From Arthrobacter sp. MYb227 (lineage in GTDB: Bacteria; Actinomycetota; Actinomycetes; Actinomycetales; Micrococcaceae): a DNA stretch of 64,000 nt. Below the pieces are notes generated by a model. The model saw nothing but the letters and a program-made list of their open reading frames with translations. It was not told the DNA's origin and made no database searches. Positions 6,746-59,694 of this stretch are shown here, in pieces. The position numbers and the translations under genes were made by a program. How positions within the stretch are numbered: the stretch's first letter is position 1; every line of letters begins with the position of its first letter. Location: assembly GCF_002975435.1 (NCBI RefSeq), contig NZ_PCPT01000002.1, forward strand, positions 186,001-250,000. The letters run 5' to 3'.

Positions 6746-6801
6746 CGTTGCCGCCGGTTACCTGGAGGGAATCGGCAACCAATTTGGCGGCGGGGCGTTC
6801 C

Positions 6802-7983
6802 TTAGAAAGGGCCGTGTGCGCTTCTACTGCCTGCCGATAGTGCTGTGGGATCGATGGCCCTGCGTCCGGCGCTAAATTTTGCGGGAGCAGGACCGCTACC
6901 CGTGGCAAGATCGGCAAGAATCCGGCCAATGGTTGGGGTGAATTTGAAGCCGTGGCCGGAGAAACCCGCACCCATGGTGATGGGGCCGATCCGATCCAGA
7001 ATGAAATCCTCATCCGGGGTATTTGTGTAGGTGCAGCTGATCTCGGTGAAGATATCTGCATTGACGCCCGGAAGCCATACGCGAGCGTAATCCCGCAGTG
7101 CGTGTAATTGTTTGGGTTCGGAGGCGAAGCTGCGTTGATCGGGGTGGGTCTGTGCCCCGGTTCCGTGCCACCCGGCCTTGATTCCCTCACCCGGGGTCAG
7201 CATTCCGTAGACCGGTGAATAAGCGTTTTCAAAACCGGGGGAGCCGGGGACGATGTTGTGGTTGAAGCCCGGCCACCCGGTCTGCGCATCGCGTGGAGCA
7301 AAATGTAGGGGTTGTTCCTGGGTGACGCGTAGCTGCGGAAGCCGCACCGAGTCGGGAATCAGGTAGCTGGTCCAGGCGCCGGCGGTAACCACCACGCTTC
7401 GTGCTTCAAGAATTTCTGTTCCGGATGGAGTTTCAAGAACCATGTGAACCTGGTTTTCGCCAAGGACCGTCATTTCAACAACGCGAACCCCATGCCTAAT
7501 AGTGGCACCATGTTCGGTGGCCACACGCTGAAAACTTGGCAGGGCAAGATCGGGATTCAGTTGTCCACCATCTGGCATGTGCAGGGCGGGGGTGGCAAAT
7601 CGAATTCCGTTCCACCGTTCGGTGGCCTCGGCCGCGCTGAGTTCTTCGGCGCGAATACCCACCGCCGTCAGCGCCGCAAGAGTGTCCGCCTGCGAGACCG
7701 GGTCGCCGTGATTGACGGTTCCGGTGCGGGTGATCTGTTCGGAACCACTCTGCGCGCCAAGTGTTTCCCAAAGCATGAGTGATTCGGCGAGCATTCCCAC
7801 ATAGGTTGGATCGGCATACCCGAGGTTGAGGTTGCGGGTAGTTCCATGCGAGGCCCCATTTGTATGCCCAGGCGCGAACTGTTCAAGCAAGGTAACCTCA
7901 CGGCCACGGGTGGCAAGCTGCCAAGCCGTTGCAGAACCCATGGCTCCGCCACCAATAACGACAATATCCAGCCGTGTGACCAT
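6802..7983 (-). CDS. Sarcosine oxidase / N-methyl-L-amino-acid oxidase family flavoprotein
   Basis: 393 residues from ATG 7983, chosen over an upstream ATG because GGAAGG is correctly placed before it. The N-terminal dinucleotide-binding motif is VVIGGGAMGSATAWQLA, followed by SHGTTRNLNLGYA. The covalent-flavin cysteine is near residue 317 in the sequence CTYTNTPDEDF, and GFSGHGFKFTPTIGR ends the FAD domain. Monomeric sarcosine oxidase and SolA-type N-methyltryptophan oxidase share this architecture and oxidatively demethylate N-methyl amino acids, releasing formaldehyde and hydrogen peroxide. Length and motifs cannot decide between them. A link to choline/betaine breakdown through the choline-sulfatase-like gene at the right edge is only speculative. 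Confidence 0.88.
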   Translation of the reverse strand: MVTRLDIVVIGGGAMGSATAWQLATRGREVTLLEQFAPGHTNGASHGTTRNLNLGYADPTYVGMLAESLMLWETLGAQSGSEQITRTGTVNHGDPVSQADTLAALTAVGIRAEELSAAEATERWNGIRFATPALHMPDGGQLNPDLALPSFQRVATEHGATIRHGVRVVEMTVLGENQVHMVLETPSGTEILEARSVVVTAGAWTSYLIPDSVRLPQLRVTQEQPLHFAPRDAQTGWPGFNHNIVPGSPGFENAYSPVYGMLTPGEGIKAGWHGTGAQTHPDQRSFASEPKQLHALRDYARVWLPGVNADIFTEISCTYTNTPDEDFILDRIGPITMGAGFSGHGFKFTPTIGRILADLATGSGPAPAKFSAGRRAIDPTALSAGSRSAHGPF

Positions 7984-14088: not shown

Positions 14089-15867
14089 TTAGAAGTCCGC
14101 ACGGCTGTACGTTGTAATCTTGTGCCCTTGGCCTCCTTCACGAACGACGACTCCCGAAGTCAGCAACGGGGATAGCGCGTAGCGAATCTGGTTTGCGGTC
14201 AAACCAGTCTTTTCGGAGATATCAGTAACTTCCAAGGGCTCTGAACCCAACTCACGCAAGATGGCAGCGGCGTTCTTTGAGGTCTTTATAGGTTCGGGAA
14301 TACGAATTGGGGTAGCAGTGAGCAATCGTGTTGAGCCAGTATCTGGTGCCGAGCCAACAAGAGCGGGGGAGTTCCCCGCTGGAACTGGCCCAATCGCTGG
14401 AGAAGCTGCGCTCGACAGAGCAGTAATGACATAGGTGTTTCCCTTGCCAGGAGCATGAGCCAAGCCGGCAGTTACCAAACCCTGCAAAACCTCTTGTGCC
14501 TCTGCGGAATCGAAGAGGCCGAATTCGCTCTGGGCTAGTGTGGCAGTCCAGGCTTGGCCTTGGCGCATTGAGACTAAGAGTTGTTTCTGAATTTCTGAAA
14601 GTTGTGCCCCGACACGCAACCCACCGAGCCATTGGCGATCCTCAGCGGTGAGTGAGCTGCCAAGCGGAATCGAGGCGGTGAACCGGACTCCATTGTCAGT
14701 AAACTCCGGGCGGCGAAGCCCTGCATTGTCGAGTACACGCCTGACTTCACACAGCCCGCAGCTTTCGCCATCGACGACCCGTTCCGCCGACTCCGCCCCG
14801 GTGAACTTACAGATTTCATAGAGGAACTCATTGACCGAAGCTTTAGCACCAGGCCAGCCAAGCTGGTCTTTGCTCAGTCCCCAGATACCGCCGGGACTTG
14901 AAACTGTGAGTCGGCCCGCTGCCAAGCGCATTTCGACGTTTTTGCCGTTGGTATGCGGGCTAAGATCACGATGGACTAACGCGTTAGTGATGAGTTCCCG
15001 CACCGCGGTTTGTGATGCTTCGGTTTCAAGAGGGGATGGTTCAGGAGATCCCGAGGGGATTCCGGCACGGATGTTGTGCTGGATCCATTCAAGAGCGCTG
15101 TCCAGCAGGTCAGGCAGCGGGCCATCGAATTCGACTCGAACCGGTACACCATTGCCTGCTGGTTCTAGGACAGCTGTGATCGACAGGTGCGGTTCGAACT
15201 GTTGTGGATACCGGCCCAGCGCGTAGAGGCCGGCCAACGTTAACCGGCCTCCCTGTGGTTCCAGAACGCGCTTGAAGCGGAGCACCTCCTCGTCGGAGAC
15301 CTCGCTCAGGCGGCGTGATGTTGCACGTGCGGCAGCAACGAAAGCAGCACTTAGCTGTGCGTCCAAGTCAGCGATTGAAGTTTCATCAACGGGACGGGTA
15401 TCTTGCCGCGGTCGGTCAACTGAATTCACCAGTTGCTGGGTCTCAGGTTCCGAGATTCGGTACTGACCATCGCTTTGTCGCAGGTAGGCAAGTTGCCCTT
15501 GGGTCGTTCGGCAGGGACGAGCAGTGGGTGCTAGCCCCTCAACCTTGACGATGAGCACTGCCTTTTCGTCAAGACTTAACTGCTCGCACGCCACTTGAAC
15601 TTTGGGCGTTACAGAAGTTCGAGCCTGTGACGTCACGAGAGCTTCTAGGGAAGCGGGGTCTTCGACGCCGGTAACGCGGAATCCATCGATGTGGTTAATG
15701 CCCAAGATGATGGTTCCACCCTCGGGTGCGTTGCCGAAAGCACTCAATGTTTCTTTGAGGTCGGGACAGCCTTTAGATGCTTCGCGGACTTCGAGATGAG
15801 TGAAGTCAACAGCGGTTGAGCGAAGCTGTGTCAGAAGGAGCTGAAGGCGCTCGGGGGTCCATGCCAT
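14089..15867 (-). CDS. AlbA_2 (Schlafen-like) plus GHKL-type ATPase plus winged-helix protein
   Basis: 592 residues. An N-terminal AlbA_2 domain (about 20-150) contains LEVREASKGCPDLKETLSAF and GGTIILGINHIDGF. A COG2865-type HATPase_c_4 region (about 285-400) has the N-box TAVRELITNALVHRDLS and SSPGGIWGL. After a low-complexity linker (about 480-530), a C-terminal winged helix follows (AAILRELGSEPLEVTDIS, then LTANQIRYALSPLLTSG). Proteins of this plan are treated as transcriptional regulators or RNA/DNA-binding stress proteins, and some belong to defence loci. It stands alone here, with AT-richer DNA upstream. The function is not known. Confidence 0.8.
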   Translation of the reverse strand: MAWTPERLQLLLTQLRSTAVDFTHLEVREASKGCPDLKETLSAFGNAPEGGTIILGINHIDGFRVTGVEDPASLEALVTSQARTSVTPKVQVACEQLSLDEKAVLIVKVEGLAPTARPCRTTQGQLAYLRQSDGQYRISEPETQQLVNSVDRPRQDTRPVDETSIADLDAQLSAAFVAAARATSRRLSEVSDEEVLRFKRVLEPQGGRLTLAGLYALGRYPQQFEPHLSITAVLEPAGNGVPVRVEFDGPLPDLLDSALEWIQHNIRAGIPSGSPEPSPLETEASQTAVRELITNALVHRDLSPHTNGKNVEMRLAAGRLTVSSPGGIWGLSKDQLGWPGAKASVNEFLYEICKFTGAESAERVVDGESCGLCEVRRVLDNAGLRRPEFTDNGVRFTASIPLGSSLTAEDRQWLGGLRVGAQLSEIQKQLLVSMRQGQAWTATLAQSEFGLFDSAEAQEVLQGLVTAGLAHAPGKGNTYVITALSSAASPAIGPVPAGNSPALVGSAPDTGSTRLLTATPIRIPEPIKTSKNAAAILRELGSEPLEVTDISEKTGLTANQIRYALSPLLTSGVVVREGGQGHKITTYSRADF

Positions 15868-16276
15868 TCCCTTAGCTTAGGCAGTAATGTCTAAATGTCC
15901 AATATGTAAGTTACGCTATTCATAGTTAGACGTGGAGCACTTTACGCACATAAACTCCCTAGTCAGAACGCACTCTATGGTAGTGAAATGGTTGGGCGGC
16001 AGAACCAACTGCCCGCAAAAAAGTCGCAAATATTAAACATTAATGTTTGCGGCGTGTGAATCTCACCTGATATACGCTAGAAATTAATGTTTAGATATTG
16101 GTGGCACGACTTGCCTAGCGGTTTCATGAGGTGGAGAGGCACTAACTGTCTTTAGCGAGGAAAAATAACGCGGCCGCTAAAGCCAAGGCAATGAGCGTGC
16201 TGGCTCCGATTCTGAGAATGAACTCACTACCTCAAGAAGCAGAAACGGAGCAGGAGACCGAAGTAGCTGGGAACAT
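15868..16276. other. 409-bp AT-richer gap with an ATTAATGTTT repeat
   Basis: AAACATTAATGTTT (16035-16048) is a perfect 14-bp palindrome. Its half ATTAATGTTT recurs at 16083-16092. AT-rich composition and repetition suggest a promoter/operator region for the gene at 15867 or a remnant of transferred DNA. No coding sequence is supported. Confidence 0.4.
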
Positions 16277-17422
16277 CTACCCGCGAGTCCAATCCATGGT
16301 GAACTTCTTGGCCACCGCGGTTCTTATCATGGGAATTGCCGTGAGAGCACCGAAAGCTCGATCCCGAAAATCGATGAGACGTTCTGGGCTGGGACGACCA
16401 AGAACCATATTCAGGTGCGCTTGACGGCTGGCAACCCTGACCGCGGAGAGTCTTTCCCTGCTGAACTGTTTGAGCAAGGCCCGGTTGTCCCCACCTGTGG
16501 CAAGGATCGGTGCCAGAGCCGCGGCATCCAACAATCCCAGTGCCATCCCTTGACCACCGATGGGGCTGACCTCATGGGCAGCATCTCCAATCAGAATGAC
16601 GCGGCCCATGGCCAGCTGTGGGACACTGTGCCGCGCAGCACGGAACCTGCTGAGCATGGTGCGCGTACTTTCATCCAAGATGTATCCGGTGCGCAGAGAA
16701 ACCAAATCGCCAAGTGCTCGGTCTTCGGTGGGAGATATCCACGCCACCCAACGCCGCAGGCCCCCGGGCATGGGAAAGGATTCGATAATGCCTTGATGAT
16801 GCAGAAAAAGTGCGGCGGTTGAACCGAATTCTGTGGTGTCCGGGTAGTCGCCCATGACGTAGTGATCCGGGTAGGGCTCACCGGTGAACTTTCGGCCCGC
16901 CGTGGTGCGTACCGAGGACTGTGTGCCATCAGCGCCCACCAGATAGCGGGTTGCTAGTTCGTACTCACAGGTAGTTGCAGCATTGGAATGGTGATGTGCT
17001 CGAACACTTAGCCCAGCGTCTCCCGGTAACTGGGTGAAGCCAGCGAACTCGGTGGTACCGATAAAGGCCTCCGGATCCAGCAGGTCTAAACGGGCGCGAA
17101 GAATGGCGACGGTTTCGCTTTGCGGCAGGGACAAGACGTAGCGGTGTGGGCCAGGTAGTGCCCGAAAGTCCAGCGAGGCAATCAACTTTCCGCGCGATAT
17201 CCCCACCCCGTCCCTGATGCGAACGCCACGCTCGAGGATCTTGGCTCCCACTCCTGCTCGGTCAAGAACCTCCAACGCCGGTGGATGGATACCAATGGCC
17301 CGGGAATGATCCCCAATATGGTGCCGCTTTTCCAAGACGCGGACACGTAATCCCGACTCGATCAGCAGTATAGCTAGGGTCAGCCCGGAAGGCCCGCCGC
17401 CGACAATAACAACATCAAGCAC
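16277..17422 (-). CDS. FAD-dependent aromatic hydroxylase (SrsC-like role)
   Basis: About 381 residues from GTG 17422, which overlaps the methyltransferase stop by eight bases. A longer frame to 17509 is possible but would overlap that gene by 95 bases. PHBH-fold flavoprotein: GxGxxG motif in VVIVGGGPSGLTLAILL, a mid-protein VGADGTQSSVR segment (the DG motif) and the second FAD motif VILIGDAAHEVSPIGGQGM. By position after a type III PKS and a methyltransferase, it probably hydroxylates the polyketide-derived phenolic ring, giving a hydroquinone or quinone, as SrsC does in Streptomyces griseus (known family; product here inferred). Confidence 0.87.
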   Translation of the reverse strand: MLDVVIVGGGPSGLTLAILLIESGLRVRVLEKRHHIGDHSRAIGIHPPALEVLDRAGVGAKILERGVRIRDGVGISRGKLIASLDFRALPGPHRYVLSLPQSETVAILRARLDLLDPEAFIGTTEFAGFTQLPGDAGLSVRAHHHSNAATTCEYELATRYLVGADGTQSSVRTTAGRKFTGEPYPDHYVMGDYPDTTEFGSTAALFLHHQGIIESFPMPGGLRRWVAWISPTEDRALGDLVSLRTGYILDESTRTMLSRFRAARHSVPQLAMGRVILIGDAAHEVSPIGGQGMALGLLDAAALAPILATGGDNRALLKQFSRERLSAVRVASRQAHLNMVLGRPSPERLIDFRDRAFGALTAIPMIRTAVAKKFTMDWTRG

Positions 17423-18125
17423 CGGGCTGGTTCCCTGATCTATAAAGCGCTTGGAGCCTAAATAGTCCTGCGGGTTGGGCCTTCCACCGAGGGGGAAGAA
17501 GTTGCTCAAGTTCCTCCGGTAGGTAGCTGCGTCGGATGGAGGTCAGCCCATCCCTGCGGGTTAGCGAGGTCCTGGCCAACGGCAGCGTGGCAGCACCAAA
17601 AAGGAAAAGGGCGGTACGGCTGCGGCGAATATCGTTGTGGATGGAGAGGGACGAACTCAGCCTTGAGGAATCGGCAAGCAGCCCCGCCAGTTCTGCGGGC
17701 GAAAGATGATGAAGCAGATGGTTTGAAACCACAACATCGAACATTTGGCCCTCGGCAACCAGCTCCGAGCTCAGTGCGCGACGAAAAAGCACCCGGGAAC
17801 GCCCGAGCCCCGAAGCGTCAGCGGCACGCACGGCAAAATCATGCGCCCGGGCATCGGGGTCGATACCCTGCACCCGCACATCAAAACCATCCTTAGTTGC
17901 CCAACGTGCCAAATTAATTGTGATGTCCCCGCCTCCGCAACCAATATCCAAAATTGTGGCTTTTCTGTCGCGGGGGAGCGCAGGGCGAATCAGTGTTTTA
18001 TAGATCCCACGCCACCCGGAGACGAACCAGTTCACCAACGGGAATTGTTTGTAGGTACGTTCCAGCAGCAGCGGGTCGCAGTCCGTACGATCCATTTCCT
18101 CACGCGCGTTGGCGGCTCGTTCCAT
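17415..18125 (-). CDS. Class I SAM-dependent methyltransferase
   Basis: 236 residues from ATG 18125, eight bases after the PKS stop. Motif I is ATILDIGCGGGDITINLARW, then GIDPDARAHDFA and a motif-IV region FDVVVSNHLLHHLSPAE. It is embedded between the type III PKS and the flavin hydroxylase, and both junctions are tight, so all three are co-translated. It likely O-methylates a phenolic hydroxyl of the PKS product, as SrsB does. SrsB may belong to a different methyltransferase fold, so the analogy is by position and not by demonstrated homology. Confidence 0.88.
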   Translation of the reverse strand: MERAANAREEMDRTDCDPLLLERTYKQFPLVNWFVSGWRGIYKTLIRPALPRDRKATILDIGCGGGDITINLARWATKDGFDVRVQGIDPDARAHDFAVRAADASGLGRSRVLFRRALSSELVAEGQMFDVVVSNHLLHHLSPAELAGLLADSSRLSSSLSIHNDIRRSRTALFLFGAATLPLARTSLTRRDGLTSIRRSYLPEELEQLLPPRWKAQPAGLFRLQALYRSGNQPGA

Positions 18126-18133
18126 GGATGCGC

Positions 18134-19273
18134 CTAGTTGGGACGCTCGGGCAACACAGTCATCAACGAGGTCTCCACGGTAAGCCCCGGACCAAAGGCC
18201 ATGGCACATACGCGCTCACCTTCGGGGGCCGCTTCGGGAACTGCCTTGTCCATGATGTCCTTGAGAACAAACATGACGGTGGCACTGGACATGTTCCCAA
18301 ACTCGTTCAACACCCGACGTGCCGGAACCAGTTGTTCATCGGATAATTCCAGCCGCTTCTGGACTCGGTCCAGGATGGCTCGGCCCCCGGGATGAATTCC
18401 CCAATGCGGGATATCCGCATACGTCTCGGCCAGTGAAGGATCATGCGCAAGGAGCGGTTCGAGGGCACCGATAATGTGGTCATCGATGATGTGTGGGACG
18501 TAGGTGCCCAGCACCATCTCGAACCCCTCGTCTCCAATGTTCCAGGCCATGGATTCCTCGCCCACCGGGGTGAGGACTGTTTCAAAATGATCAAGCCGCA
18601 GACCGGCACCCTGGTAGGGACGGGCCGTGACAATTGCAGCGGCTCCGCCATCTGCGAAGATGGCCGAACCCATGATGGTATCGGGGTTATTCGAACTGCG
18701 CACATGCAAGGAACACAACTCAACGCAGACTACTAACACCACAGCATTAGGGTCTGCCTCGCAAAAGCTCTTGGCAGCACGAAGCCCCGGGAAGGCGGCA
18801 TAGCAGCCCATGAATCCTAGGTGGTAGCGCTGTGTCGAAGGGTGCAGCCCCAGTGCCCTGACCAGTTGGTAGTCGGGACCAGGATTGTAGAACCCGGTAC
18901 AGGAAACGGTGATGACATGGGTGATATCCGCGGCGCCCAGATCGGGGCAGGCTTCGAGGGCCTTGCGTGCGGACTCAATGAACAATTTGCTGGCCTCGGC
19001 CGCGAAAATCTCATTGCGGACTTTGGTGCTGGGGCTCAGGAGCAGGCCCGTGGCCGAATCAAAGAACACCGGATCTTCGGCTCGTGAATCGAGGGTGAGT
19101 TCGGAGAGTGCGGTGCGTCGGGTGGAAATTTCTGCCGAGTTGAAAGACGTGGCGATGAGCCGTTGTCCCAGTCTGGTGAGATTGGGTTGGGCGGCAAAGA
19201 CGTCTCGGGCAGGGCCCTGATGGAGGATGGTGGGTGGAAGCGCTGTTTGGATGGTTCTCATCATCACGGGCAT
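18134..19273 (-). CDS. Type III polyketide synthase (alkylresorcinol/alkylpyrone-type)
   Basis: 379 residues, chalcone-synthase superfamily. The catalytic triad is visible: Cys157 in GFMGCYAAFPGLR, His294 in HWGIHPGGRAIL, Asn327 in NEFGNMSSATVMF. The GFYNPGPDYQLVRALGL region fits long-chain-starter bacterial enzymes. The enzyme would extend an acyl-CoA with malonyl-CoA in the cytoplasm and cyclise it to a resorcinol, resorcylic acid or pyrone. First gene of a three-gene operon (PKS, methyltransferase, flavin hydroxylase). Start ambiguous within MPVMM; ATG 19273 gives the longest product. Confidence 0.92.
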   Translation of the reverse strand: MPVMMRTIQTALPPTILHQGPARDVFAAQPNLTRLGQRLIATSFNSAEISTRRTALSELTLDSRAEDPVFFDSATGLLLSPSTKVRNEIFAAEASKLFIESARKALEACPDLGAADITHVITVSCTGFYNPGPDYQLVRALGLHPSTQRYHLGFMGCYAAFPGLRAAKSFCEADPNAVVLVVCVELCSLHVRSSNNPDTIMGSAIFADGGAAAIVTARPYQGAGLRLDHFETVLTPVGEESMAWNIGDEGFEMVLGTYVPHIIDDHIIGALEPLLAHDPSLAETYADIPHWGIHPGGRAILDRVQKRLELSDEQLVPARRVLNEFGNMSSATVMFVLKDIMDKAVPEAAPEGERVCAMAFGPGLTVETSLMTVLPERPN

Positions 19274-19797
19274 GAGCCGAGCCTATGGCTCAGGACAGAA
19301 CATGTAAAGAGAAATTTTTTGGTACTTATCTGGTGTTCGGGGCGGTTGAACTTCCAGGCGAACTTTGCCGGCTGGCAAACACGTTCCTACTGCAGTTGGT
19401 CTCGTCCAGCCATTCAACGGGCTTGTTCCCCAGACCCGCAGTGATTGCAGTGGCAGTCTCTTACCTAGCGTTTAGCTCGGTAACTGCTAGGTGCGGTTGG
19501 TTGCTGGTAAAGGAAGCGCACGCAGCATTCAGGATCTCATTTGTGCAGTTCCTGCGGTGTTGGTGAGAACGGCGATTGGTGGGGTGGCACGTTCGAGGAG
19601 CGTTGTTTGCCCTTTTGGAAACCAACATGAGGGAATCGCCATCACGCCTAGTCGGGTTTACGAGATGAATTGATGCCGCAGCAAATACTCTGCCTGATGA
19701 GCTGCTGAGCACCGAAGAATGGAAGTTGGTCCTATCATTCTTAGCAGTTCACTGGTCGGCAGAGCAGAGTATTGAAAACCAGAAATCGGAGGGGGCG
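19274..19797. other. 524-bp gap, possibly decayed sequence
   Basis: No gene could be recognised on either strand. AATACTCTGC (19684-19693) and GCAGAGTATT (19764-19773) form a 10-bp perfect inverted repeat around about 70 bp, possibly the ends of a small decayed element. The 5' part must hold the promoter of the PKS operon. Confidence 0.35.
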
Positions 19798-26221: not shown

Positions 26222-27157
26222 CTAGGCATCGTTGGCGCAACGGAAACCGACATTCGCCGAGGCTGAGTCCGGGGTATTCGACGAACGCGCGGCTACCCGA
26301 TAGCGATTGCAGTATGAATCATGGCAGAGAAAGGATCCACCACGCATGACACGGCTTTCACCCTCTTTAGGACCTTGGGGGTTCTGGACCGGTGAGTGCT
26401 GATAGTACCTGGGATCAAAGCGATCCACGCACCATTCCCAGACATTACCTGCTGTGTTGTAGAGGCCAAACCCATTGGGTCGATAGGATTTGACCGGAGC
26501 AGTAGTCAGATAGCCGTCAGCCTCGGTGTTTTGGGCGGGGAATTGGCCTTGCCAAATATTGCAGCGCCAATGACCTCTTGGGGTTAGCTCATTGCCCCAG
26601 GCGTAGCGTGCGCCGCTAAGACCACCACGTGCAGCAAATTCCCACTCGGCCTCGGTTGGGAGGCGTTTACCTGCCCAGGCTGCGTAGGCTTGGGCGTCGG
26701 CCCAGGACACGTGGGTGACGGGGTGATTCGGCTTATCGCCGATGCTGGAGAGTGGGCCTTCAGGGTGTTTCCAGTCCGCTCCGCGAATTGTAAGCCACCA
26801 AGGAGTGCTATGCAGCTGGTTGAGCACATCTGCTCGTCTAGCGGCCACAGCGAGGTGGAAGACCGCGGAGCTGCCGTAACGTTCGGAGTCGGTGAGGTAT
26901 CCGGTATCCTTGATGAATTTGGCAAATTCGCTGTTAGTGACGGCGGTGGTATCAATGTGGAATGGCGCAAGTTCGACGGGGTGCACAGGCGTTTCGCCGT
27001 CGGCCGGGTAACCCTCGTCGAAGTGATCCCCCATAGTAAAGCTCCCGCCGGGCAACAGTAATTGCCCCTTTGTATTGCGAGACGAACGCAGGACAGCGGG
27101 CGCTGGGGCAAGGGCGCCATCGCGAGTGGCCCCCGCACAGCACTTCGATTCGGTCAT
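26222..27157 (-). CDS. Formylglycine-generating enzyme (sulfatase-modifying factor)
   Basis: About 311 residues from ATG 27157, which has AGGAAGG correctly spaced upstream. FGE-sulfatase domain: PGGSFTMGDHFDEGYPADGE, PVTHVSWADAQAYAAWAGKR, LPTEAEWEFAARGG, FGLYNTAGNVWEWCVDRF, and the copper-binding active-site pair Cys278/Cys283 in GGSFLCHDSYCNRYR. It oxidises the Cys of the CxPxR motif in sulfatases to formylglycine in the cytoplasm. It is a lone gene, but two sulfatase genes (33132 and 62804) in the window would need it. No signal peptide is seen, consistent with a cytoplasmic sulfatase partner. Confidence 0.93.
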   Translation of the reverse strand: MTESKCCAGATRDGALAPAPAVLRSSRNTKGQLLLPGGSFTMGDHFDEGYPADGETPVHPVELAPFHIDTTAVTNSEFAKFIKDTGYLTDSERYGSSAVFHLAVAARRADVLNQLHSTPWWLTIRGADWKHPEGPLSSIGDKPNHPVTHVSWADAQAYAAWAGKRLPTEAEWEFAARGGLSGARYAWGNELTPRGHWRCNIWQGQFPAQNTEADGYLTTAPVKSYRPNGFGLYNTAGNVWEWCVDRFDPRYYQHSPVQNPQGPKEGESRVMRGGSFLCHDSYCNRYRVAARSSNTPDSASANVGFRCANDA

Positions 27158-27943
27158 CGGGTGAACCTTCCTAGACTCAGATATTCTTAATCGACGGGTG
27201 GCGAACGATTTTATCGAGCGAAGAGTAAAGCGCTCATTTGTCATGAACAATTGCGATGCTTCTCGGCCCAAACTAGCCTGAATTTGTGTATTCCACGGCA
27301 CCAAACCCTACAACTGAGGTTCCCGGAGCATGCTGCTTCCGTTACGTAAGCTAAAGGTCGACAAGTACAAACTGTGCCATCGCCACCATCGCTCAGTCTT
27401 CCGTCTGCACCGCGTTCAACCACGCTACTGACGGTGTGCACACCCCCCATATTAGTCTCCCGGCTCGAAGCAAAAGACCTTGTCCTTGCCTCGGGAACTG
27501 CCCTCGCCCTAACGCAAATGGTAGTTACACGATGGCATGGGATCCAACCAACGAAGTAGGGACACCCCGTTGCGTCTTTATAAGGAGATACATATTTTCA
27601 GGCATTCCCGCGTGAACCATGTTTGTGCCCGAGCGTCCGGGATATGATTAACGGCTAAACATGAGCTGCAGACCGCCCCGATTTGGCGTAGCGCAGAAGA
27701 TTCCACAAATAAACTTCAGTCGGCGGTTTCTTCGCCCTCGCCGATGTATCCAAGGGCTTCAACGCAGCGATGTATATCAGACTCAGTCCAGGCTTCTTGG
27801 GCCTATCTTTCAGAAGCCCAATAGCCTGCCGTACAAATTGCTTGGCCAGATATCCCGGTCAAGCAATTTGTACGGCCCACTAGAAAGCAACTCAATATTC
27901 AAACGGGCCTAGTCTCCTAGGCATTATATCCGAAGGAACTTCG
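27158..27943. other. 786-bp gap with nested inverted repeats near its right end
   Basis: No gene is supported. A perfect 16-bp inverted repeat, CCGTACAAATTGCTTG (27829-27844) and its complement (27860-27875), lies 70 bp after the SLC13 gene and may end its transcript. A second pair, GGCTTCT (27791-27797) with AGAAGCC (27812-27818), lies beside it. The FGE promoter should be in the first 100 bases. Confidence 0.5.
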
Positions 27944-29383
27944 CTAGAAGGGGTAGGCGAACGGTGCCAGAAGGATGAGACATGCAGTGAGAATCAAAGC
28001 CAGCGGTCCACAGATCTTGACAAAGTCCATATACCGGAAGCCGACCACGAGTGTCTGCGTCATCGATGGCGTGCCAACAGGAGTTGCAATGGCAATATTG
28101 GCGGCGATAGTAATAACGATGGCCCAGCTGGTCGGATTTGCATCGAATGCCACGGCAATTGTCATCGCGATTGGGACGAACATTGCAACTAATGCTGTAT
28201 TGGACGCGAAGTTGGTCATCACCATGCACACTACAACGAGAACACCGAGCACCAGCCATGGGCTGGTGTCCATACCCAAGGAATCCACGAGCGAGTCAGC
28301 AAGTAGCTGGCCGCCACCTGCGCTAGTCATGCCCTTACCAAACGCAATGGCCGCGGAAACAATAATCAGGGTATTCCAATCGATTCCCCTGATCGCACCC
28401 TTCAATGTGATGCACCCGGTCATCACCAAGACCAACGCTCCGATCAAGGCCACTATCGCTAGGTCCCAGAGTCCGACGGCGAATGCCACGATCATTCCAA
28501 GCATGAGCAACATGGAGAACGGCAGCTTCCAGCTGGCTATGGGCTCAGCGGAACTACGAATTTCATCGTTGGAATTTCCTGTGTTGAGCATATCCAGTGG
28601 TTCAAAATTAAGTACTCGGCTACCAATGGAGTATCCGATCGTACCCATGTAAACCACGGAGATGATGATCAAGGGAACACCGATAGCAGACAGCGTGAAC
28701 ATACCCATCGGTGTAGCACCAGGGGTCGCGATCAAGATACCTTGGGTAATCAATTGGGAGGTTGTACCCGTTAGTGTGGCGACGCCGCCAATTGCTGCAC
28801 CGACGCCTGCGCCCATGAGCACGATCGGCGTCTTAATCCGTCCGTTAGATCGATTAGCTAGGATCGCGATCAGCGGGATAAAGATGGCAACGGTAGCGGT
28901 ATTACTGAAGAACGCAGAAAGACAACCTGTCACCAAAGTGACGGCAGTTACAAGAAGCCGTTCACTTCGGTGCAGCCCGAGAGCTTCGAATTTACGGGCA
29001 ACCAGATCTGCGAAGCCAGTGTTGAACAGTGCCGTTCCGACCACCATCATGGCCCCACAGAACACTGTGACCTGGCTACCAAAGGAACCGTAGACATCCT
29101 CAAACTTCAGCACACCGGTCACAGCCATCAAAAGTGCAGCAGCAAGTGCCGTCATAATGATGGGGATTTTTTCCAGTACGAAAGAAATCATTGCAACAAT
29201 GACGATGACGATCGAAAGGATTGGCAATACGTCTTCCACCGTGACAGCAGGGTTCACAAGTGGTAGGAGTCGAATGAAAATGGGCACTGCCAAAAGGCCG
29301 AATAGTGCAATTCCCCAGCCTCGGGAAATAGCCTTTCTAGCAGGCGGGGTATTGGCCATGACTTCTATCTTGGTGGCATCCAT
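27944..29383 (-). CDS. SLC13/DASS-type anion transporter
   Basis: About 479 residues from ATG 29383 (GGAAAA box upstream; TTG 29395 is the alternative). A dozen hydrophobic segments. It belongs to the ArsB/NhaD/CitT permease superfamily, shown by the pair of inverted-repeat signatures SAFFSNTATVAIFIPLIA and MTNFASNTALVAMFVPIA and by IATPVGTPSMTQTLVVGF near the C-terminus. Members import sodium- or proton-coupled dicarboxylates, sulfate or other anions. In this setting, between sulfatase maturation and an HpsN-like dehydrogenase, an organosulfonate, sulfate ester or sulfate is an attractive but unproven substrate. Confidence 0.88.
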   Translation of the reverse strand: MDATKIEVMANTPPARKAISRGWGIALFGLLAVPIFIRLLPLVNPAVTVEDVLPILSIVIVIVAMISFVLEKIPIIMTALAAALLMAVTGVLKFEDVYGSFGSQVTVFCGAMMVVGTALFNTGFADLVARKFEALGLHRSERLLVTAVTLVTGCLSAFFSNTATVAIFIPLIAILANRSNGRIKTPIVLMGAGVGAAIGGVATLTGTTSQLITQGILIATPGATPMGMFTLSAIGVPLIIISVVYMGTIGYSIGSRVLNFEPLDMLNTGNSNDEIRSSAEPIASWKLPFSMLLMLGMIVAFAVGLWDLAIVALIGALVLVMTGCITLKGAIRGIDWNTLIIVSAAIAFGKGMTSAGGGQLLADSLVDSLGMDTSPWLVLGVLVVVCMVMTNFASNTALVAMFVPIAMTIAVAFDANPTSWAIVITIAANIAIATPVGTPSMTQTLVVGFRYMDFVKICGPLALILTACLILLAPFAYPF

Positions 29384-29412
29384 GAGATTTTCCAATATCA
29401 GTTGTGAAGGGA

Positions 29413-30256: not shown

Positions 30257-31588
30257 CTAGTTAGCGGCGGCTTTTGCCAGCGCTACGGGTTCGTACCATG
30301 GGAGGTCCGGCTGGTTGCCGTAGCGGCGTACGCGGATGTTTGCTTGTTCGCCGTGGCCCACGAAGCTTTCCATGTGGGATAGGCGGGAGCAGTACTCGCC
30401 GATTTCTGCGCTGGCTTGATCGGTGATGATGCGCTGGTAGGTGCAAGTCTTGAGGAACTTGCCGACCCACAAGCCACCGGTGTAGCGGGCAGCCTTGTTG
30501 GTGGGAAGGGTGTGGTTGGTGCCGATGACCTTGTCGCCGTAGGCGACGTTGGTGCGTGGTCCCAGGAACAAGGCACCAAAATTGCTCATATTGTTCAGGA
30601 AGTAGTCGGGGTCCTTCGTCATGACCTGGACATGTTCGGAAGCGAGTTCATCCGCGACGGCAAGCATTTCTTCGTAGGTGTCGCACACGATGACTTCGCC
30701 GTAGTCGGCCCAGGCAATCCGTGCAACATCGGCAGTTGGCAAGATGGTGAGCTGACGTTCGATTTCCGCCATGGTTTCACGGGCTAGCTTCTCGCTGTTG
30801 GTCAACAAGACCGAGGGGCTAGTTGGGCCGTGCTCGGCCTGCCCCAGGAGGTCTACCGCACAAATTTCTGCGTCGACGCTTTCATCGGCGATGACCAAAG
30901 TTTCGGTTGGTCCGGCGAAGAGGTCGATGCCCACGCGTCCGAATAGCTGTCGTTTGGCTTCGGCAACGTACATGTTTCCTGGGCCGACCAGCATGTCCAC
31001 GGCTGCGATGGACTCGGTGCCCAGTGCCATGGCAGCCACTGCTTGTACACCGCCAAGAACCAGGATTTCATCGGCGCCTGCAAGGTGCATCGCGGTAACA
31101 ATGGCCGGGTGCGGAGAACCTTGGAATGGCGGGGCCGTGGCGACGACGCGCGGAACACCTGCAACCTTGGCTGTCAGCACGCTCATATGGGCTGCGGCAA
31201 GCAAGGGGTATTTTCCGCCAGGGATGTAACAGCCAACGGCGTTCACCGGGATGTTCTTGTGCCCCAGGATGACGCCTGGGTGGGTTTCAACCTCGACGTC
31301 GGTCATGCTGGCCCGCTGGATCTGAGCGAAGTTACGGATTTGTTTCTGAGCAAATTTGATGTCGTCAATCTGACCGCGTGAAAGGCTCTTGACCGCAGCA
31401 TCAATTTCCTGCTCGGACAGGCGGAAGCTTGAAGGATCCCATGCATCGAAGTTCTGGCTGTACTTGCGAACGGCACTGTCGCCGTTCTTTTCAATGTCAG
31501 CCAAGATGCCTTCAACGGTCTGGCGGACCTTAGCATTGTCCTGGGCACGGACTGCGGCATCCTTGCCGCGCTTCAAATAGGTAATCAC
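30257..31588 (-). CDS. Histidinol-dehydrogenase-family enzyme, probably HpsN-like (sulfopropanediol 3-dehydrogenase)
   Basis: 443 residues. Full histidinol-dehydrogenase fold: [51 protein letters not shown], the Gln/His zinc region [15 protein letters not shown], the EH base in [23 protein letters not shown] and a C-terminal GH. The N-terminus [18 protein letters not shown] and the [18 protein letters not shown] segment resemble HpsN, which oxidises 2,3-dihydroxypropane-1-sulfonate to sulfolactate, more than biosynthetic HisD. No histidine gene is near. It is divergent from a LacI gene and carries that regulon's operator. Substrate is inferred; related enzymes may use other diols. Confidence 0.8.
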
Positions 31589-31625: not shown

Positions 31626-31843
31626 CACTGTGAAGCGTATCACCTTAATTTCCGTATGCAAGAGCCCGTTCGGAGCTGTGTGCCAAAAGCCACCGCACCT
31701 CGCGCCACTGCGCAGCGCCATGGTCCGCCACGAAGGAACCGCAGGTTTCTCTGCAAGCAGTGCTAACGAATGGGCCCAGCCTCCCCGCCTGCGGTCACCG
31801 CAATAGCGTCGTGAAATCGCCGCTCAATCGGATTCCGTTAGAG

Positions 31844-31859
31844 TTGCATACGTCTGAAA
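31844..31859. promoter_or_regulatory. LacI-type operator upstream of the lacI-like gene
   Basis: TTGCATACGTCTGAAA matches the same 16-bp consensus at 14 positions and ends 17 bp before the preferred regulator start, which implies autoregulation. Its position also argues that the coding region begins after it, not at an earlier in-frame ATG. Confidence 0.65.
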
Positions 31860-31876
31860 GTATCTACTTCAAGGGG

Positions 31877-32911
31877 ATGTGCACATTGGCAGCGGGAACA
31901 CGAGGACCTGCAACTTCAATCGACGTTGCAAAGCTGGCAGGAGTATCCCAGTCCGCGGTATCGCGAACCTATACTAAGGGCGCGAGCGTGGGTGCGGAAA
32001 CGCGAGCGCGGGTTGAAGCAGCCGCGGCCAAGCTCGGTTACCGGCCCAACCTCATCGCTCGTTCACTCATGACGCGCCGCACAAATATTATTGGCCTAGC
32101 CGTTGGAGGCTTGGCAAATCCGTTTTACGCCGCCATCGTCGAGCAGCTCTCAAACGCGCTGCAGGAAATCGGATACCATGTCCTGCTCTTCACCCTCACG
32201 GATGAAACCGACTCTGATGAACTGTTGCAGCAGGTCATCAACCTCAGGCTCGATGCTTTAATCATGGCATCAGTCAGCCTGTCATCCTCACTTGCCAGCA
32301 GCTGTCAATCCAATGGCATACCCGTAATACTGGTCAACCGCACCACCAGCGCCGACGGCTGTTCTTCGGTAAGCACCGACAACGAGGCAGGCGCCACCAT
32401 GCTCGCTCAATACGTGATCGATGCCGGACACTCGAGAATCCTCTACGTGGCAGGAACCGAAACCACTTCAACGAACCTGGAGCGTGAACGCGGCCTCACG
32501 AGCGCGATTGCTGCCCGTGACGGTGTGGCGTTTCAGCGCATTGCTGGAGATTACGACTTCAAGACCTCCGCACAGGAAATTGCACAATTACTCAGCGGAT
32601 CAAACTTCGTGCCGGATGCAATCTTTTGCGCTAACGACTTCATGGCCTTTGCCGTCATGGACGCACTTCGCTTCCATCATGGACTGAGGGTTCCTCAGGA
32701 TATTTCGGTAGTTGGCTTTGATGATTCAGGGCCTGCATCCTGGCTAAGCTACGACCTGACCACCTACTCCCAGCCAATACCCCAAATGGTCGAAGCCGTC
32801 ATTTCCATCCTCCAGGCAGTTGCCCAAAATCCCGACGCCGCTCCCCAGCACGTCGTCATATCCGGTGAGCTAATCATCCGCGGCTCCTGCCGTGGACGGG
32901 GTGACGGCTAA
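31877..32911 (+). CDS. LacI-family transcriptional regulator
   Basis: About 344 residues. HTH TSIDVAKLAGVSQSAVSRTY lies near the N-terminus, the hinge SLMTRRTNIIGLAV follows, then a periplasmic-binding-protein-like sensor domain with FCANDFMAFAVMDALR and VVGFDDSGPASW. ATG 31877 follows AAGGGG without a gap, so a TTG at 31886 with proper spacing may be the real start. It lies between, and divergent from or upstream of, the HpsN-like and sulfatase genes. All three promoters have near-identical palindromes, making this the obvious regulator of both. The inducer is probably a sugar-like or polyol compound derived from the sulfated substrate (inference). Confidence 0.9.
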   Translation: MCTLAAGTRGPATSIDVAKLAGVSQSAVSRTYTKGASVGAETRARVEAAAAKLGYRPNLIARSLMTRRTNIIGLAVGGLANPFYAAIVEQLSNALQEIGYHVLLFTLTDETDSDELLQQVINLRLDALIMASVSLSSSLASSCQSNGIPVILVNRTTSADGCSSVSTDNEAGATMLAQYVIDAGHSRILYVAGTETTSTNLERERGLTSAIAARDGVAFQRIAGDYDFKTSAQEIAQLLSGSNFVPDAIFCANDFMAFAVMDALRFHHGLRVPQDISVVGFDDSGPASWLSYDLTTYSQPIPQMVEAVISILQAVAQNPDAAPQHVVISGELIIRGSCRGRGDG

Positions 32912-32986
32912 ACGAGCATCCCCTTTGTTGGGCGATGCCACGCCCGTAGCACGCAAGGCTTGCGGCATGAGGCTTTGGGCGCTTGC

Positions 32987-33002
32987 TTGCATACGTATGC
33001 GG
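32987..33002. promoter_or_regulatory. LacI-type operator upstream of the arylsulfatase
   Basis: TTGCATACGTATGCGG, with a perfect 12-bp core GCATACGTATGC at 32989-33000. It lies 130 bp before the sulfatase start and 76 bp after the regulator stop, indicating a separate regulated sulfatase promoter. Confidence 0.75.
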
Positions 33003-33131
33003 AACGTGATTAGCTTTGTGATCATCACCACTACTGAAGCTTGTGGTTCCAGCCCTGAGGAGTTCGCTTGTATCGGACTTTGCGCTGTGGCAGGTGTCCA
33101 TTTACGAAAGCACCCCTTCAAGGAGAGCATC

Positions 33132-35357
33132 ATGTCCGTATCAAAAGACGTTCGATCTGGTAACAAGTCGTCGGAGGCCCTCTCGTCAACCGGCACGCGT
33201 CCTAATATCATCTTCGTGGTTCTTGATGACCTCGGATACTCGGATATCGGTTGCTACGGATCTGAAATCTCTACCCCAAACATAGATCGACTGGCTACAA
33301 ACGGCGTTCGTTACACCAACTTCCACACCACTGCAATGTGTTCGCCGACACGAGCTTCATTGCTCACTGGTCGACAGCACCACGCGGTCGGGATGGGCAT
33401 GATCACCGAATGGGCAACGTCAGACCCTGGCTATGCCGGGCGTATTGATCCCCGAGCAGCAAATATTGCCGAGGTTCTGCAGGCTGATGCCTATGCCACG
33501 ATGGCCATCGGAAAGTGGCACGTCATGCCTCAGGCCGAAGCCAAACCCTCGGGTCCCTTCAGTGACTGGCCGCTACAAAAGGGCTTTGACAGGTGGTACG
33601 GATTCCACGGTGCACTCGCGGATTCGTGGACGCCTGAGCTCTTTGAAGACAACCACACGATCGATCTGCCCGACAGGCCGGGATACCACCTCACCGAGGA
33701 CCTGATTGATCAGTCGATCAGTTACATTCGTGACTTCAGAGCCAATGAATCAGAACGACCTTTCTTCATGTACTTGGCATTGGGCGCGGCCCATTGGCCT
33801 CACCAGGTCGCAGAAGAATACATCGCCAAGTACAAGGGCAACTACGACAAGGGCTGGGATGTAATCCGTGATGAGCGTCTTGCACGGCAAAAGGCTCTGG
33901 GTGTTATTCCGCAGAATACGGATTTGGCTCCACGTAACCTGGGCGTCGAGGCTTGGGACGATCTAGATAAAGACCGCAAGCGTCTGTTCGCCCGGATGCA
34001 GGAAGTGTATGCCGGTTTCATTGACCACACCGATGAACAGATCGGCCGTTTGCTGGATTACTTGGAAAAAATCGAAGACCTCGATAACACCATCATTGTC
34101 CTGCTCTCCGACAATGGAGCTTCCCCCGAAGGCGGATCGGACGGTGCCGTTAATGCACGCAAAAACCTTGTCTACGGAACCGAGACGCTCGAGGACAAGA
34201 TGGCGGCAATCGATGAGCTTGGTAGTGAAAGCGCCTACAACCACTACCCGAAGGGATGGGCACAAGTAAGTAACACACCCCTGAAATGGTACAAAAAGGA
34301 CGTTCACGGAGGCGGTGTCCGGGATCCTTTCATCGTGCACTGGCCAGCCCAGATTGCCGACCAAGGAACCGTTCGCACGCAATATCACCACGTCGTAGAC
34401 GTAGTACCAACCATCATGGACTTGATTGGAGCAAAGTTCCCCACACAATGGCGCGGCCAGGAACAGATGCCCATCCATGGCGTCAGCATGGCCTACACCT
34501 TGGACGATGCCACGGCGCCAACCCGCAAGCAAATCCAGTACTATGAAATGCTCGGAGACCGTGGAATCTGGCTCGACGGGTGGAAGGCTGTTGCCTTGCA
34601 CGAAAAGGGCGCACCATTCGAAGATGATGAGTGGGAGCTCTACCACGTCGCCGAAGACTTCTCGGAATGCCACAACCTCGCGGACGAACGACCTGAGAAG
34701 CTCAAGGAACTGGTGGACTTGTGGTGGGCGGAAGCACACGAGAACCAGGTACTTCCTCTAGATGACAGGGAATATGAACGCGCAGCCGCAGCCATCGCAA
34801 AGCTGGCTAAGGACAGCTACCGTTTCTATCCCGGGATGGCTCGACTGGACCGCTACCACGTCCCGGATATCACCAACCGCTCCTACTCAATCACCGCAGT
34901 CGCTGATCTAGCCGATCAAGAAGCAACCGAAGGCGTCCTGCTTTCCATTGGATCGCGCTTCGGCGGCTTGGTTCTGTTCTGTCAGGAAGACAAGCTCGTC
35001 TTTGAATACTCCTACGACGCCGGGGAAAGAACTAAGGTCACCAGCGCCAGCACCCTCGAACTAGGAAGCAATACCGTTCTGGAATTGCGCTTTGATTCTG
35101 ACGGCAACGGCGGCGGCACAGCAAACCTGATCATCAATGGAGTACTTGATGCACAGGTCAACATTGCACGTACCTGGCCGGTAGCCGGATTGGCCGGAGG
35201 ACTGCATTGCGGCCGCGACGGTGCATCACTAGTCAGCGAATCATACACCGGTCCCTTTGCCTTCAACGGCAAACTGCACCACGTCTCACTTGTACTCGAT
35301 GGATCTTCCCGCAACGATGTCAGCACCGAAATCAAACGGGCCCTCATCGAAGAATAA
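33132..35357 (+). CDS. Arylsulfatase, AtsA type (cytoplasmic)
   Basis: 741 residues from ATG 33132, chosen for its AAGGAG box and because the alkaline-phosphatase-like fold begins at PNIIFVVLDDLGYSDIGCYG. The formylglycine motif is Cys70 in MCSPTRASLLTGR. Metal-site motifs follow: SDNGASPEGG and the GGGVRDPFIVHWP region. A C-terminal beta-sandwich of about 180 residues (NRSYSITAVADLAD, then VLLSIGSRFGGLVLF) is the one seen in mycobacterial/Pseudomonas AtsA-like enzymes. There is no signal peptide, so the sulfate ester must be imported first. A LacI operator lies upstream and a strong terminator downstream. The FGE at 26.2 kb would activate it. Confidence 0.93.
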   Translation: MSVSKDVRSGNKSSEALSSTGTRPNIIFVVLDDLGYSDIGCYGSEISTPNIDRLATNGVRYTNFHTTAMCSPTRASLLTGRQHHAVGMGMITEWATSDPGYAGRIDPRAANIAEVLQADAYATMAIGKWHVMPQAEAKPSGPFSDWPLQKGFDRWYGFHGALADSWTPELFEDNHTIDLPDRPGYHLTEDLIDQSISYIRDFRANESERPFFMYLALGAAHWPHQVAEEYIAKYKGNYDKGWDVIRDERLARQKALGVIPQNTDLAPRNLGVEAWDDLDKDRKRLFARMQEVYAGFIDHTDEQIGRLLDYLEKIEDLDNTIIVLLSDNGASPEGGSDGAVNARKNLVYGTETLEDKMAAIDELGSESAYNHYPKGWAQVSNTPLKWYKKDVHGGGVRDPFIVHWPAQIADQGTVRTQYHHVVDVVPTIMDLIGAKFPTQWRGQEQMPIHGVSMAYTLDDATAPTRKQIQYYEMLGDRGIWLDGWKAVALHEKGAPFEDDEWELYHVAEDFSECHNLADERPEKLKELVDLWWAEAHENQVLPLDDREYERAAAAIAKLAKDSYRFYPGMARLDRYHVPDITNRSYSITAVADLADQEATEGVLLSIGSRFGGLVLFCQEDKLVFEYSYDAGERTKVTSASTLELGSNTVLELRFDSDGNGGGTANLIINGVLDAQVNIARTWPVAGLAGGLHCGRDGASLVSESYTGPFAFNGKLHHVSLVLDGSSRNDVSTEIKRALIEE

Positions 35358-56065: not shown

Positions 56066-56154
56066 GGATTTCCTTTCATTTTGGCGCGTAGAAGTACCCC
56101 GCACCGTGGTTTAAGTTGTTACTGAGTGATTGAAAAAAGTTGGATAGGGCCTAT

Positions 56155-59100: not shown

Positions 59101-59694
59101 AGCTAGATCCTTGACTAACCATTCAGGAGAGTTCTGCGAAACGGGAAAAGCATTGCTTTCCCCATTCATATGGATGTAACGGATATGCGCTTTCCACTGA
59201 TTTGGGGCTCCAATAAGGTTCGGAGCCACCAATGAAAAGTAGCGGTCCAGGTTCTCTGTCGCAAAAGACTTGCTGTCTGCATAGGGTGCAATATTGGTGT
59301 CGAGTGGTGATTCAGGATCGTCGCTACTCTGTACCTCTGGAACAGGGCTGACGCTACTGGATTCCGTAGACTCCACGACTTGTGAGGGGCTTTCCGGCGC
59401 CGAAGGCTCAGTCGATTCGGCATGCTGTGAATCTTCGATCGGCTCGGTAGATGCGGAATCGAGGGGGGATTCTACGGGAACAATTTCAGGTTCTGTGGAC
59501 TCTAGAGGTCTTTCGTCAAGTCCCGTGGTGATTGTTAGATCATCGACTCTCGTCTCGCTTTCGGGTGACGCTGGAGTAGCCGCGAATGAGCCTGCCCCAC
59601 CAGCTAGCAGAGCGAAGCTGACAGCTATCCCTATCAGTGCGGTCCGTCGCCGTTGTGAGCGTTCGATTCTTTGGCGCGAGTACACCTTTGTCAC
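56155..59694 (-). CDS. Large sortase-anchored pilus tip/surface protein
   Basis: About 1180 residues from GTG 59694 (a GTG at 59778 would add 28). Signal peptide (RRRTALIGIAVSFALLAGG), then a Ser/Glu/Pro-rich stretch of about 100 residues, a large N-terminal region with beta-propeller-like GxFDFDSAGNLTFL repeats, several DUF11/isopeptide-type Ig domains (VSKTSDPETGVAV) and a final domain with an E-box-like YWLLETKAPT. The C-terminal sorting signal is LPVSG (LPLPVSGGNG), a helix and an RRNRYG tail; LPVSG departs from canonical LPxTG. First gene of the pilus operon, so likely the adhesive tip subunit. Confidence 0.88.
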   Translation of the reverse strand: MTKVYSRQRIERSQRRRTALIGIAVSFALLAGGAGSFAATPASPESETRVDDLTITTGLDERPLESTEPEIVPVESPLDSASTEPIEDSQHAESTEPSAPESPSQVVESTESSSVSPVPEVQSSDDPESPLDTNIAPYADSKSFATENLDRYFSLVAPNLIGAPNQWKAHIRYIHMNGESNAFPVSQNSPEWLVKDLAIPPGRIPPAFTGGTTQRNPNALGVTEDGVFYFTNQYQQALLTANGKRHEFIDVWRYESDQPIAESTNPRRIISGMDLGETLNTENPQQIVAGAFNPFDEAFYFGMYQPEGIAADRKIQLKVFKAAISGNDWSAGLIGTALTPKGSFLSATNGDFDFDSAGNLTFLVSSQGTVADAYLGTINSEDIQAASTTTPATFEDFTISQKLTFSTGTSGGQANGMVFARSGQLVVQASDYQRMLNPNTFSETASINPFPPTGPSDRILTTDLASFASPPTVRVDKDVIARIDPTDQFALRLGDGAKYQSIHTNGVGGELDASGLQDRKLGPVGVYTGDTVTIGETMAPDSPTLDTTLYSPIFRCVNTELPITDPNYEVDLSDLGTGFERSLEVPATLPGSWKGPQVVCTITNEGQIPALTVSKTSDPETGVAVTEEQDVKYTLSFDNTAGTGAALEVDYTDHLKDVLDDAELDLSSLAVLDVTDPDTPLEVTDGFFAVYDADAQTIKIAGAKDGTGTATVPAKTKYTLSYTVSVKPNIGTEGKPREDSDNATAYKMTNFLVEGNDEVPEKCTAPGQDEDPVCTDHLVKTWTISKDSKPSNGAQLHHGGNIYYNLEVQKTDPSYQIDGIVVTDDLSEVLRVAEWDASAPVLDGTQARGIHMMDERGNVVRSLEASYVPAPVYNGTDRWTLTTVAFSLLPGEVSAQIWFAVKVGTPPQVAPHWLPESPSPGTHFTNRVSAAAGAQEPEANQCRTGITEGEIGGAVAACTVSHAVGADYFTVRKDGRGTLATGETLNLQNLLGHEFELRSDNDGSMGAVPGFMCESSSTPPALDSTESCARFYPIPTGQQAGRWRAERVPAGTYWLLETKAPTAQRVSATETRKVTGVQLLAEPIKFIVGEEAKFGQLDIFTPGTVLFEERCDPVNSPTFIACVNPSGYLMIVRDPGLLPLPVSGGNGVSALTFGALVLIGGGLGAGYLWRRNRYGQPTP

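Follow-up and report, generated by a model that had tools for sequence, protein, structure and literature searches.

The question raised by this locus is what a type III polyketide synthase (PKS), a methyltransferase (MT) and a flavin monooxygenase (FMO, the hydroxylase of the operon) make when they stand in the order of the Streptomyces srsABC operon, and whether they are in fact that operon. The genes lie in a 64,000-nucleotide stretch of Arthrobacter sp. MYb227 (assembly GCF_002975435.1, contig NZ_PCPT01000002.1, positions 186,001 to 250,000 of the forward strand); by the window we mean this whole stretch. The PKS, MT and FMO genes follow one another in this order on the minus strand. A preliminary description had taken them for a phenolic-lipid operon of srsABC order. 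Our results suggest that a phenolic-lipid operon of the alkylresorcinol type is indeed the best reading. We consider it fairly likely that the operon belongs to a lineage of its own, shared by Micrococcales and Deinococcus, which is closest to the hid/planctomycete type and merely analogous to srsABC. We regard it as a variant within the known type III PKS phenolic-lipid operons, with a different enzyme set from that of srs.

Descent of the three enzymes

Related actinobacteria hold a second kind of operon (group B), represented by 36 loci before de-duplication, in which about 500-600 bases separate a PKS from a downstream flavin hydroxylase. The middle gene of one of these srs-type loci, L145, the sole one scanned, matched the Pfam family ICMT, and similar sequences are present in most of the group B loci listed. 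SrsB is described as an ICMT-family methyltransferase in PMC6669644, which also reports the srs layout in Marisediminicola, with genes 51-63% identical to those of the S. griseus srs operon. A 100% match to an alkylresorcinol cluster is reported for Leifsonia strains (PMC10628120), as expected of a true srs layout. The window MT matched Methyltransf_25 and other domains in Pfam, with no match to ICMT. Judged by sequence, true srs operons with an ICMT enzyme and operons of the window type coexist as separate kinds, and the window operon is of the non-srs kind.

The PKS tree agrees with this division. In a maximum likelihood tree of 73 rows (quick method, with Shimodaira-Hasegawa-like approximate likelihood ratio test support, SH-aLRT, only), the 26 PKS rows from operons with a class I MT were split off by one branch with a support of 100. 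The support was 99 after the removal of nine rows that were remote or on long branches (L245, L164, L187, L193, L135, L168, L142, L233 and L229), which were dropped after the first tree and before the approximately unbiased (AU) tests on 64 rows. The srs-type PKSs grouped with M. tuberculosis PKS11 and the RppA-type PKSs with RppA 1u0m. A single clade of the window group and the srs-type PKSs (13 PKSs from ICMT operons, L231 and PKS11) was rejected at p=8.4e-5, and the window PKS shares a mean identity of 28% and a maximum of 31.6% with srs-type PKSs. A single clade of the window group and the RppA-type PKSs (RppA 1u0m and three RppA-type loci) was rejected at p=0.009. The preliminary description had set its reading against a grouping with tetrahydroxynaphthalene (THN) synthases; the latter test, in which proxy sequences stood for these enzymes, went against that grouping. 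For the window group together with the operon PKSs of Paludisphaera and Paenibacillus, a grouping chosen after the tree was seen, a single clade was not rejected (p=0.575), and the constrained tree scored 3.3 log units above the unconstrained one.

The other two enzymes also set the window operon apart. The class I MT (METHYLTRANSFERASE) exceeded the cut-off of the NCBIfam model PRK06202, named as a hypothetical protein (282 versus 243 bits), and has no close paralogue in the source genome, where its next match scores 22 bits. Its residues His139, His140, Asp165, Arg168, Asp192, Gly193 and Ser196 are each conserved in no fewer than 111 of the 112 operon MTs, with the His139-His140 pair invariant in all 112, and these signature residues recur in MTs that lie near a PKS in Paludisphaera, Paenibacillus and Novosphingobium. 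The FMO finds its nearest solved chains among the rifampin monooxygenases and polyketide hydroxylases of group A. Column counts over 105 aligned sequences show good conservation of its FAD-binding G-x-G-x-x-G, DG and GD motifs, and by its family it would hydroxylate an electron-rich phenol. The best srs-type match to it reaches 28% identity and 55 bits; FMOs of its own kind share about 35-65% identity among the full-length rows listed. The order claimed in the preliminary description equals that of srsABC by enzyme class, but orthology with srsABC is not supported, given the rejected PKS union, the class I MT and the distant FMO.

Several points weigh against placing the operon next to the hid/planctomycete type. 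The tree was built without the SrsA, HidC, ArsB and G. maris sequences, so that proxies represent these subfamilies. The link between the window PKS and Paludisphaera is weak (SH-aLRT 85-94) and involves long branches, and the two PKSs are only 39% identical. The planctomycete FAD protein scored 32 bits against the window FMO profile, with only 55.6 bits for FAD_binding_3, and the role of the G. maris FAD protein is still described as unclear (PMC10896814).

The PKS pocket provides further markers. His190 is present in 121 of 121 relatives and also in the Paludisphaera and Paenibacillus enzymes; it is Thr in 35 of 35 srs-type PKSs and Cys in RppA. Met253 is kept in 120 of the 121, and the same column holds Cys in PKS18 and Asn in CylI. 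At this position, Phe265 of chalcone synthase (CHS), Met has been reported for the HidC clade, as against Cys in the PKS18 clade and Gln or Asn in the CylI clade (PMC8086630). Met253, taken together with the reported Met of the HidC clade, makes the pocket look HidC-like. The PKS model is closest to solved type III PKSs (Z about 41), but its fold search did not discriminate between subfamilies, as Z ran only from 41.6 down to 40.5 over 50 rows, and that ArsC, ORAS and PKS18 are missing from the match list is uninformative. The model has a predicted local distance difference test (pLDDT) score of 77.7, and the stretch 237-261, which includes Trp244, falls under 50.

Proposed pathway and rival products

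We propose that the operon encodes a three-step pathway. In the first step, the PKS would extend a long-chain acyl starter with three malonyl-CoA to a tetraketide, and a C2-C7 aldol reaction would then yield a 5-alkylresorcinol; this proposal is based on the fold, the catalytic triad, Trp244 and relatives assayed by others. The PKSs of G. maris, R. baltica and S. maiorica, for example, are reported to make pentadecyl- and heptadecylresorcinols in C. glutamicum (PMC10896814). In the second step, the class I MT would methylate the resorcinol ring, with carbon a likelier acceptor than oxygen, as in CouO, NovO and probably the G. maris relative; here the basis is the model fold and precedent. In the third step, which we infer from the family, the FMO with FAD, NAD(P)H and O2 would hydroxylate the methylated ring to a hydroquinone that could be oxidised to a lipid quinone. 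The most likely product would be a ring-methylated alkylresorcinol, oxidised to a hydroquinone or quinone lipid.

An alternative that we hold possible, if doubtful, concerns the second step: the MT may act in the manner of hid systems and cap phenol oxygens, giving a methoxy lipid as in hierridin and not a C-methyl hydroquinone. The cyanobacterial HidA, which occupies the matching position, is reported to be an O-methyltransferase that methylates both phenolic hydroxyls (PMC10896814). Moreover, O- and N-methyltransferases lie little below CouO and NovO in the fold search (Z <=18.8), so that the acceptor atom is not set by the fold. Against O-methylation, the top structural matches of the MT are C-methyltransferases. 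The MT model (pLDDT 93) is nearest to the solved folds of CouO (Z 20.4) and NovO (Z 20.2), superposing over 205-208 residues with root-mean-square deviations of 2.5 and 2.9 and 13-15% identity; the plantazolicin MT (Z 18.8) and Coq5 (Z 18.5) come next. CouO and NovO methylate a phenol ring on carbon. CouO catalysis is reported to proceed via His120 and Arg121 (PMC5289526), and the His139-His140 pair of the window MT may be their counterpart, by pattern only; a search of the MT profile against sequences from the PDB gave generic methyltransferases only and no alignment with CouO. For the G. maris relative, C-methylation is reported as probable (PMC10896814). From the model and these analogies, we lean somewhat towards carbon as the acceptor. 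The preliminary description rightly warned that the methyl position may differ from that in srs, the MT here being a soluble class I enzyme.

A second alternative is that the PKS makes long-chain alkylpyrones, as ArsC or PKS18 do, that the MT methylates these and that the FMO acts elsewhere. This bears on Trp244, which is Trp in all 121 relatives and occupies the same alignment column as the Trp of PKS11. Elsewhere in this column, which corresponds to CHS Gly256, there is Trp in 32 of 35 srs-type PKSs, Leu in PKS18, Gly in a plant enzyme and Tyr in RppA and four RppA-type loci; the Trp of the DpgA-like L128 adjoins an insertion and is probably misaligned. According to published work, Trp at position 281 of ArsB directs cyclisation to resorcinol and is kept in SrsA, PKS10, PKS11 and FtpA, and Gly at this position in ArsC leads to pyrones (PMC6274091, PMC9927152, PMC5916927). 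However, the tryptophan is not decisive. It is also found in a PKS of Rhizobium phaseoli and is thus not sufficient, RePKS of R. etli is described as a pyrone maker (PMC6274091), and PKS11 carries the residue yet was deposited as an alkylpyrone enzyme. Three operons (L133, L137 and L234) retain the PKS and MT without an FMO, which speaks for this alternative. We nevertheless judge the alkylpyrone product unlikely: the PKS18-type Leu and the ArsC Gly differ from the Trp of the window PKS, and the presence of a phenol hydroxylase in most operons (106 of 112) fits a phenol and not a pyrone.

Still less probable is a short phenol of the THN, phloroglucinol or dihydroxyphenylacetyl type, which would make the operon a source of a small pigment or antibiotic. 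Cys125 aligns with Cys106 of THN synthase, and the top NCBIfam match of the PKS is DpgA, although its 136 bits fall short of the cut-off of 425. The window group does not join the RppA clade, as described above, and RppA-type enzymes have Tyr where the window PKS has Trp. Additionally, the operon has no extra gene family shared by at least half of the related loci, whereas the RppA-type references have a cupin and the DpgA-type enoyl-CoA hydratases.

Least credible of all is an srsABC orthologue with a swapped methyltransferase, since, despite the likeness in enzyme classes, gene order and cyclisation Trp, this reading would require replacement of all three components.

Gene layout, distribution and neighbouring genes

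The layout given in the preliminary description was confirmed to the base, including the gap and the overlap listed below. Its catalytic residues also proved correctly numbered, and they are Cys, His and Asn in 121 of 121 relatives.

Features of the operon and its borders in window coordinates
Feature	Positions	Strand	Remarks
Type III polyketide synthase, 379 aa	18134..19273	-	Pfam PF00195/PF02797 above cut-off; Cys157/His294/Asn327, Cys125, His190, Trp244, Met253
Codon of Trp244	18542..18544	-	Aligned with ArsB Trp281 via PKS11; cyclisation-pocket residue
8-base gap, PKS stop to MT start	18126..18133	-	
Class I S-adenosylmethionine (SAM) methyltransferase, 236 aa, ATG at 18125	17415..18125	-	NCBIfam PRK06202 above cut-off
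8-base overlap, MT end and FMO start	17415..17422	-	
p-Hydroxybenzoate hydroxylase (PHBH)-type (group A) flavin monooxygenase, 381 aa, GTG at 17422	16277..17422	-	FAD_binding_3
Non-coding stretch 5' of PKS, 524 bases	19274..19797	not assigned	
Weak terminator-like stem 3' of FMO	16171..16185	-	Such sites fewer than in shuffles; no evidence on its own

Pfam matches above cut-off comprise the N- and C-terminal Chal_sti_synt domains in the PKS, Methyltransf_25 and related domains in the MT and FAD_binding_3 in the FMO. The FMO has an alternative in-frame TTG at 17509, upstream of the GTG; we take the GTG as the start because the conserved homology of the FMO begins there and not at the TTG. The operon presumably has its own promoter in the non-coding stretch 5' of the PKS, where a promoter scan gave no sigma-70-like match and an Rfam scan gave no match. 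In a Pfam search, the PKS was the sole chalcone-synthase-type gene in the whole 4.31-Mb genome.

The operon appears to be conserved as a unit. Among 80 loci retrieved by PKS similarity alone, the MT lies immediately 3' of the PKS in all 80 and an FMO is present in 78 at the tblastn threshold. In the wider set of class I-MT-bearing operons (group A), the presence of the MT in 112 of 112 is true by construction, as the set was defined by it, and the independent figure is the 80 of 80; by profile count, 106 of these 112 operons have an FMO. Six lack one: L010 stops at a contig edge, L146 and L152 show no FMO within the 3.5-4 kb read, and in L133, L137 and L234 another protein replaces it 3' of the PKS and MT. 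To judge by its sequence, this protein looks like a nitroreductase-family enzyme and may provide an alternative third step. The short duplicate loci L082-L110 and L112 were removed before the residue counts and L082-L120 before the operon counts; some genomes are possibly included twice, as named and unnamed copies, and the counts are to that extent not independent. When the open reading frames (ORFs) flanking the 112 loci were clustered, with PKS, MT, FMO and presumed antisense shadows (judged by position) set aside, no further gene family was found in at least half of the loci. As the triad is constant while the flanking genes vary, we regard PKS, MT and FMO as a functional unit. The acyl-CoA carboxylase and HpcH genes near the operon might have supplied extender units, but we rejected this idea, as they lie within reach only in L031 of the 80 loci.

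Each of the 15 genomes searched in the genus, the source genome included, has the PKS once, and a match is present in 81 of 120 genomes of the family, covering 21 of 32 genera; such a near-core lipid operon is a clear target. By name, the nearest matches come from Paeniglutamicibacter, followed by Zafaria, Arthrobacter and other Micrococcaceae, and the triad was found in five Pseudarthrobacter loci. A phylum-wide sample gave a PKS match (E 1e-60 or better) in 8 of 296 genomes. Five of these are in the same order, again with the source genome included; in the remaining three, the frame is incomplete and carries an in-frame stop, and the identity is 42-46%. The triad also occurs in the same order on Deinococcus plasmids, with PKS identities of 57% and 54%, and on one of these, which was separately annotated, the MT and FMO again overlap by 8 bases (6798-6805).

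Three further loci deserve mention. L126, on a Paenibacillus plasmid, has a PKS-MT-FAD operon in the same order outside Actinomycetota and Deinococcota, with a PKS 38% identical to that of the window. In L121, on a Microbacterium plasmid, an unannotated PKS was matched in two pieces and the MT and FMO are also split; this is a decaying or mis-sequenced copy of the operon. L021 is a metagenome-assembled genome labelled Acidobacteria with a Micrococcaceae-like triad (PKS 72% identical), and it is probably mis-binned or mis-named.

Elsewhere in the window, a protein with Schlafen AlbA_2 and HATPase_c_4 domains is encoded just downstream of the operon (14089-15867) and was not found beside related operons. 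A formylglycine-generating-type protein (26222-27304), a CitMHS transporter (27944-29395), a histidinol dehydrogenase homologue (30257-31588) and a LacI regulator with a type I sulfatase (31760-35357) follow one another in what looks like a cluster for the use of sulfated compounds or, as we presume, sulfonates. A pilin with SpaA and GramPos_pilinD1 domains and an LPXTG anchor (54506-56104) adjoins a 1207-aa ORF, and 54506-59778 is probably a sortase-assembled pilus locus.

Significance and comparison with known systems

Arthrobacter-type soil bacteria are abundant and stress-tolerant, and they have long-lived resting cells. A review assigns alkylhydroxybenzenes a part in the dormancy of bacteria and refers to studies of dormant cells of Micrococcus luteus and Arthrobacter globiformis (PMC12844232), and the operon is a candidate source of alkylhydroxybenzenes in the Arthrobacter group. 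If our reading is correct, it would offer a possible genetic source of these dormancy factors. We consider it a speculative but not negligible possibility that a C-methylated alkyl hydroquinone or benzoquinone serves as an alternative membrane electron carrier or a dormancy autoregulator in Micrococcales and some Deinococcus. On this reading, the synthesis of lipid quinones from type III PKSs would have arisen one more time, with a CouO-like ring C-methyltransferase in place of the ICMT O-methyltransferase, and the redox head group would be like that of methyl-benzoquinones, unlike the methoxy polyketide quinones found in mycobacteria. A quinone product would mean that the use of polyketide quinones as alternative electron carriers extends to another order via different enzymes. 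The srs and pkq products have been linked to beta-lactam tolerance and low-oxygen respiration (PMC10896814, PMC9927152). However, a planctomycete PKS deletion is reported to have had no growth or ampicillin phenotype (PMC10896814), and effects on the envelope are therefore not to be assumed.

Type III PKS clusters are known in Micrococcaceae from antiSMASH surveys (PMC11078813), and one in Pseudarthrobacter is described as unlike any known cluster (PMC12025171). A search of the literature by title found no functional study of the triad in Arthrobacter, Micrococcaceae, Deinococcus or Paeniglutamicibacter, with most subscription papers outside its reach. The pattern "PKS, methyltransferase, hydroxylase" is not a safe sign of srsABC, as related actinobacteria hold the genuine ICMT version.

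Compared with known systems, the operon combines features of several. It shares with srsABC and pkq the order of PKS, methyltransferase and flavin hydroxylase and the Trp at the cyclisation position, but SrsB is of the ICMT family and the PKS and FMO come from other groups; the srs and window operons look like independent assemblies of one three-step logic. Azotobacter ArsB likewise has Trp at the position that separates resorcinol from pyrone, but the ArsA-like fatty acid synthase genes of the ArsB/ArsC system are absent beside the window PKS. CouO and NovO offer the closest solved folds for the MT, yet at low identity, and the His-Arg pair of CouO may have its counterpart in the His-His pair of the MT. 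The Planctomycetota operon has the same three enzyme classes, and its class I MT is homologous to that of the window and carries the signature HH, D-x-x-R and DG-x-x-S; the Paludisphaera PKS agrees with the window PKS at His190, Met253, Trp244 and Cys125. The planctomycete order is MT, oxidoreductase, PKS (PMC10896814), in contrast to the PKS, MT, FMO of the window; the Paludisphaera MT reaches 94 bits against the MT profile at 26% identity, and the Planctomycetota FAD protein bears only a remote likeness to the window FMO. Finally, hidABC also consists of a methyltransferase, an oxidoreductase and a type III PKS. It differs in that HidA O-methylates, unlike the window MT as we favour it, and HidC is likened to the window PKS by a reported marker residue, Met at the CHS Phe265 position, and not by direct identity. 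A PKS-first arrangement, hidC>hidA>hidB, does occur in cyanobacteria (PMC8086630), as it does in the window.

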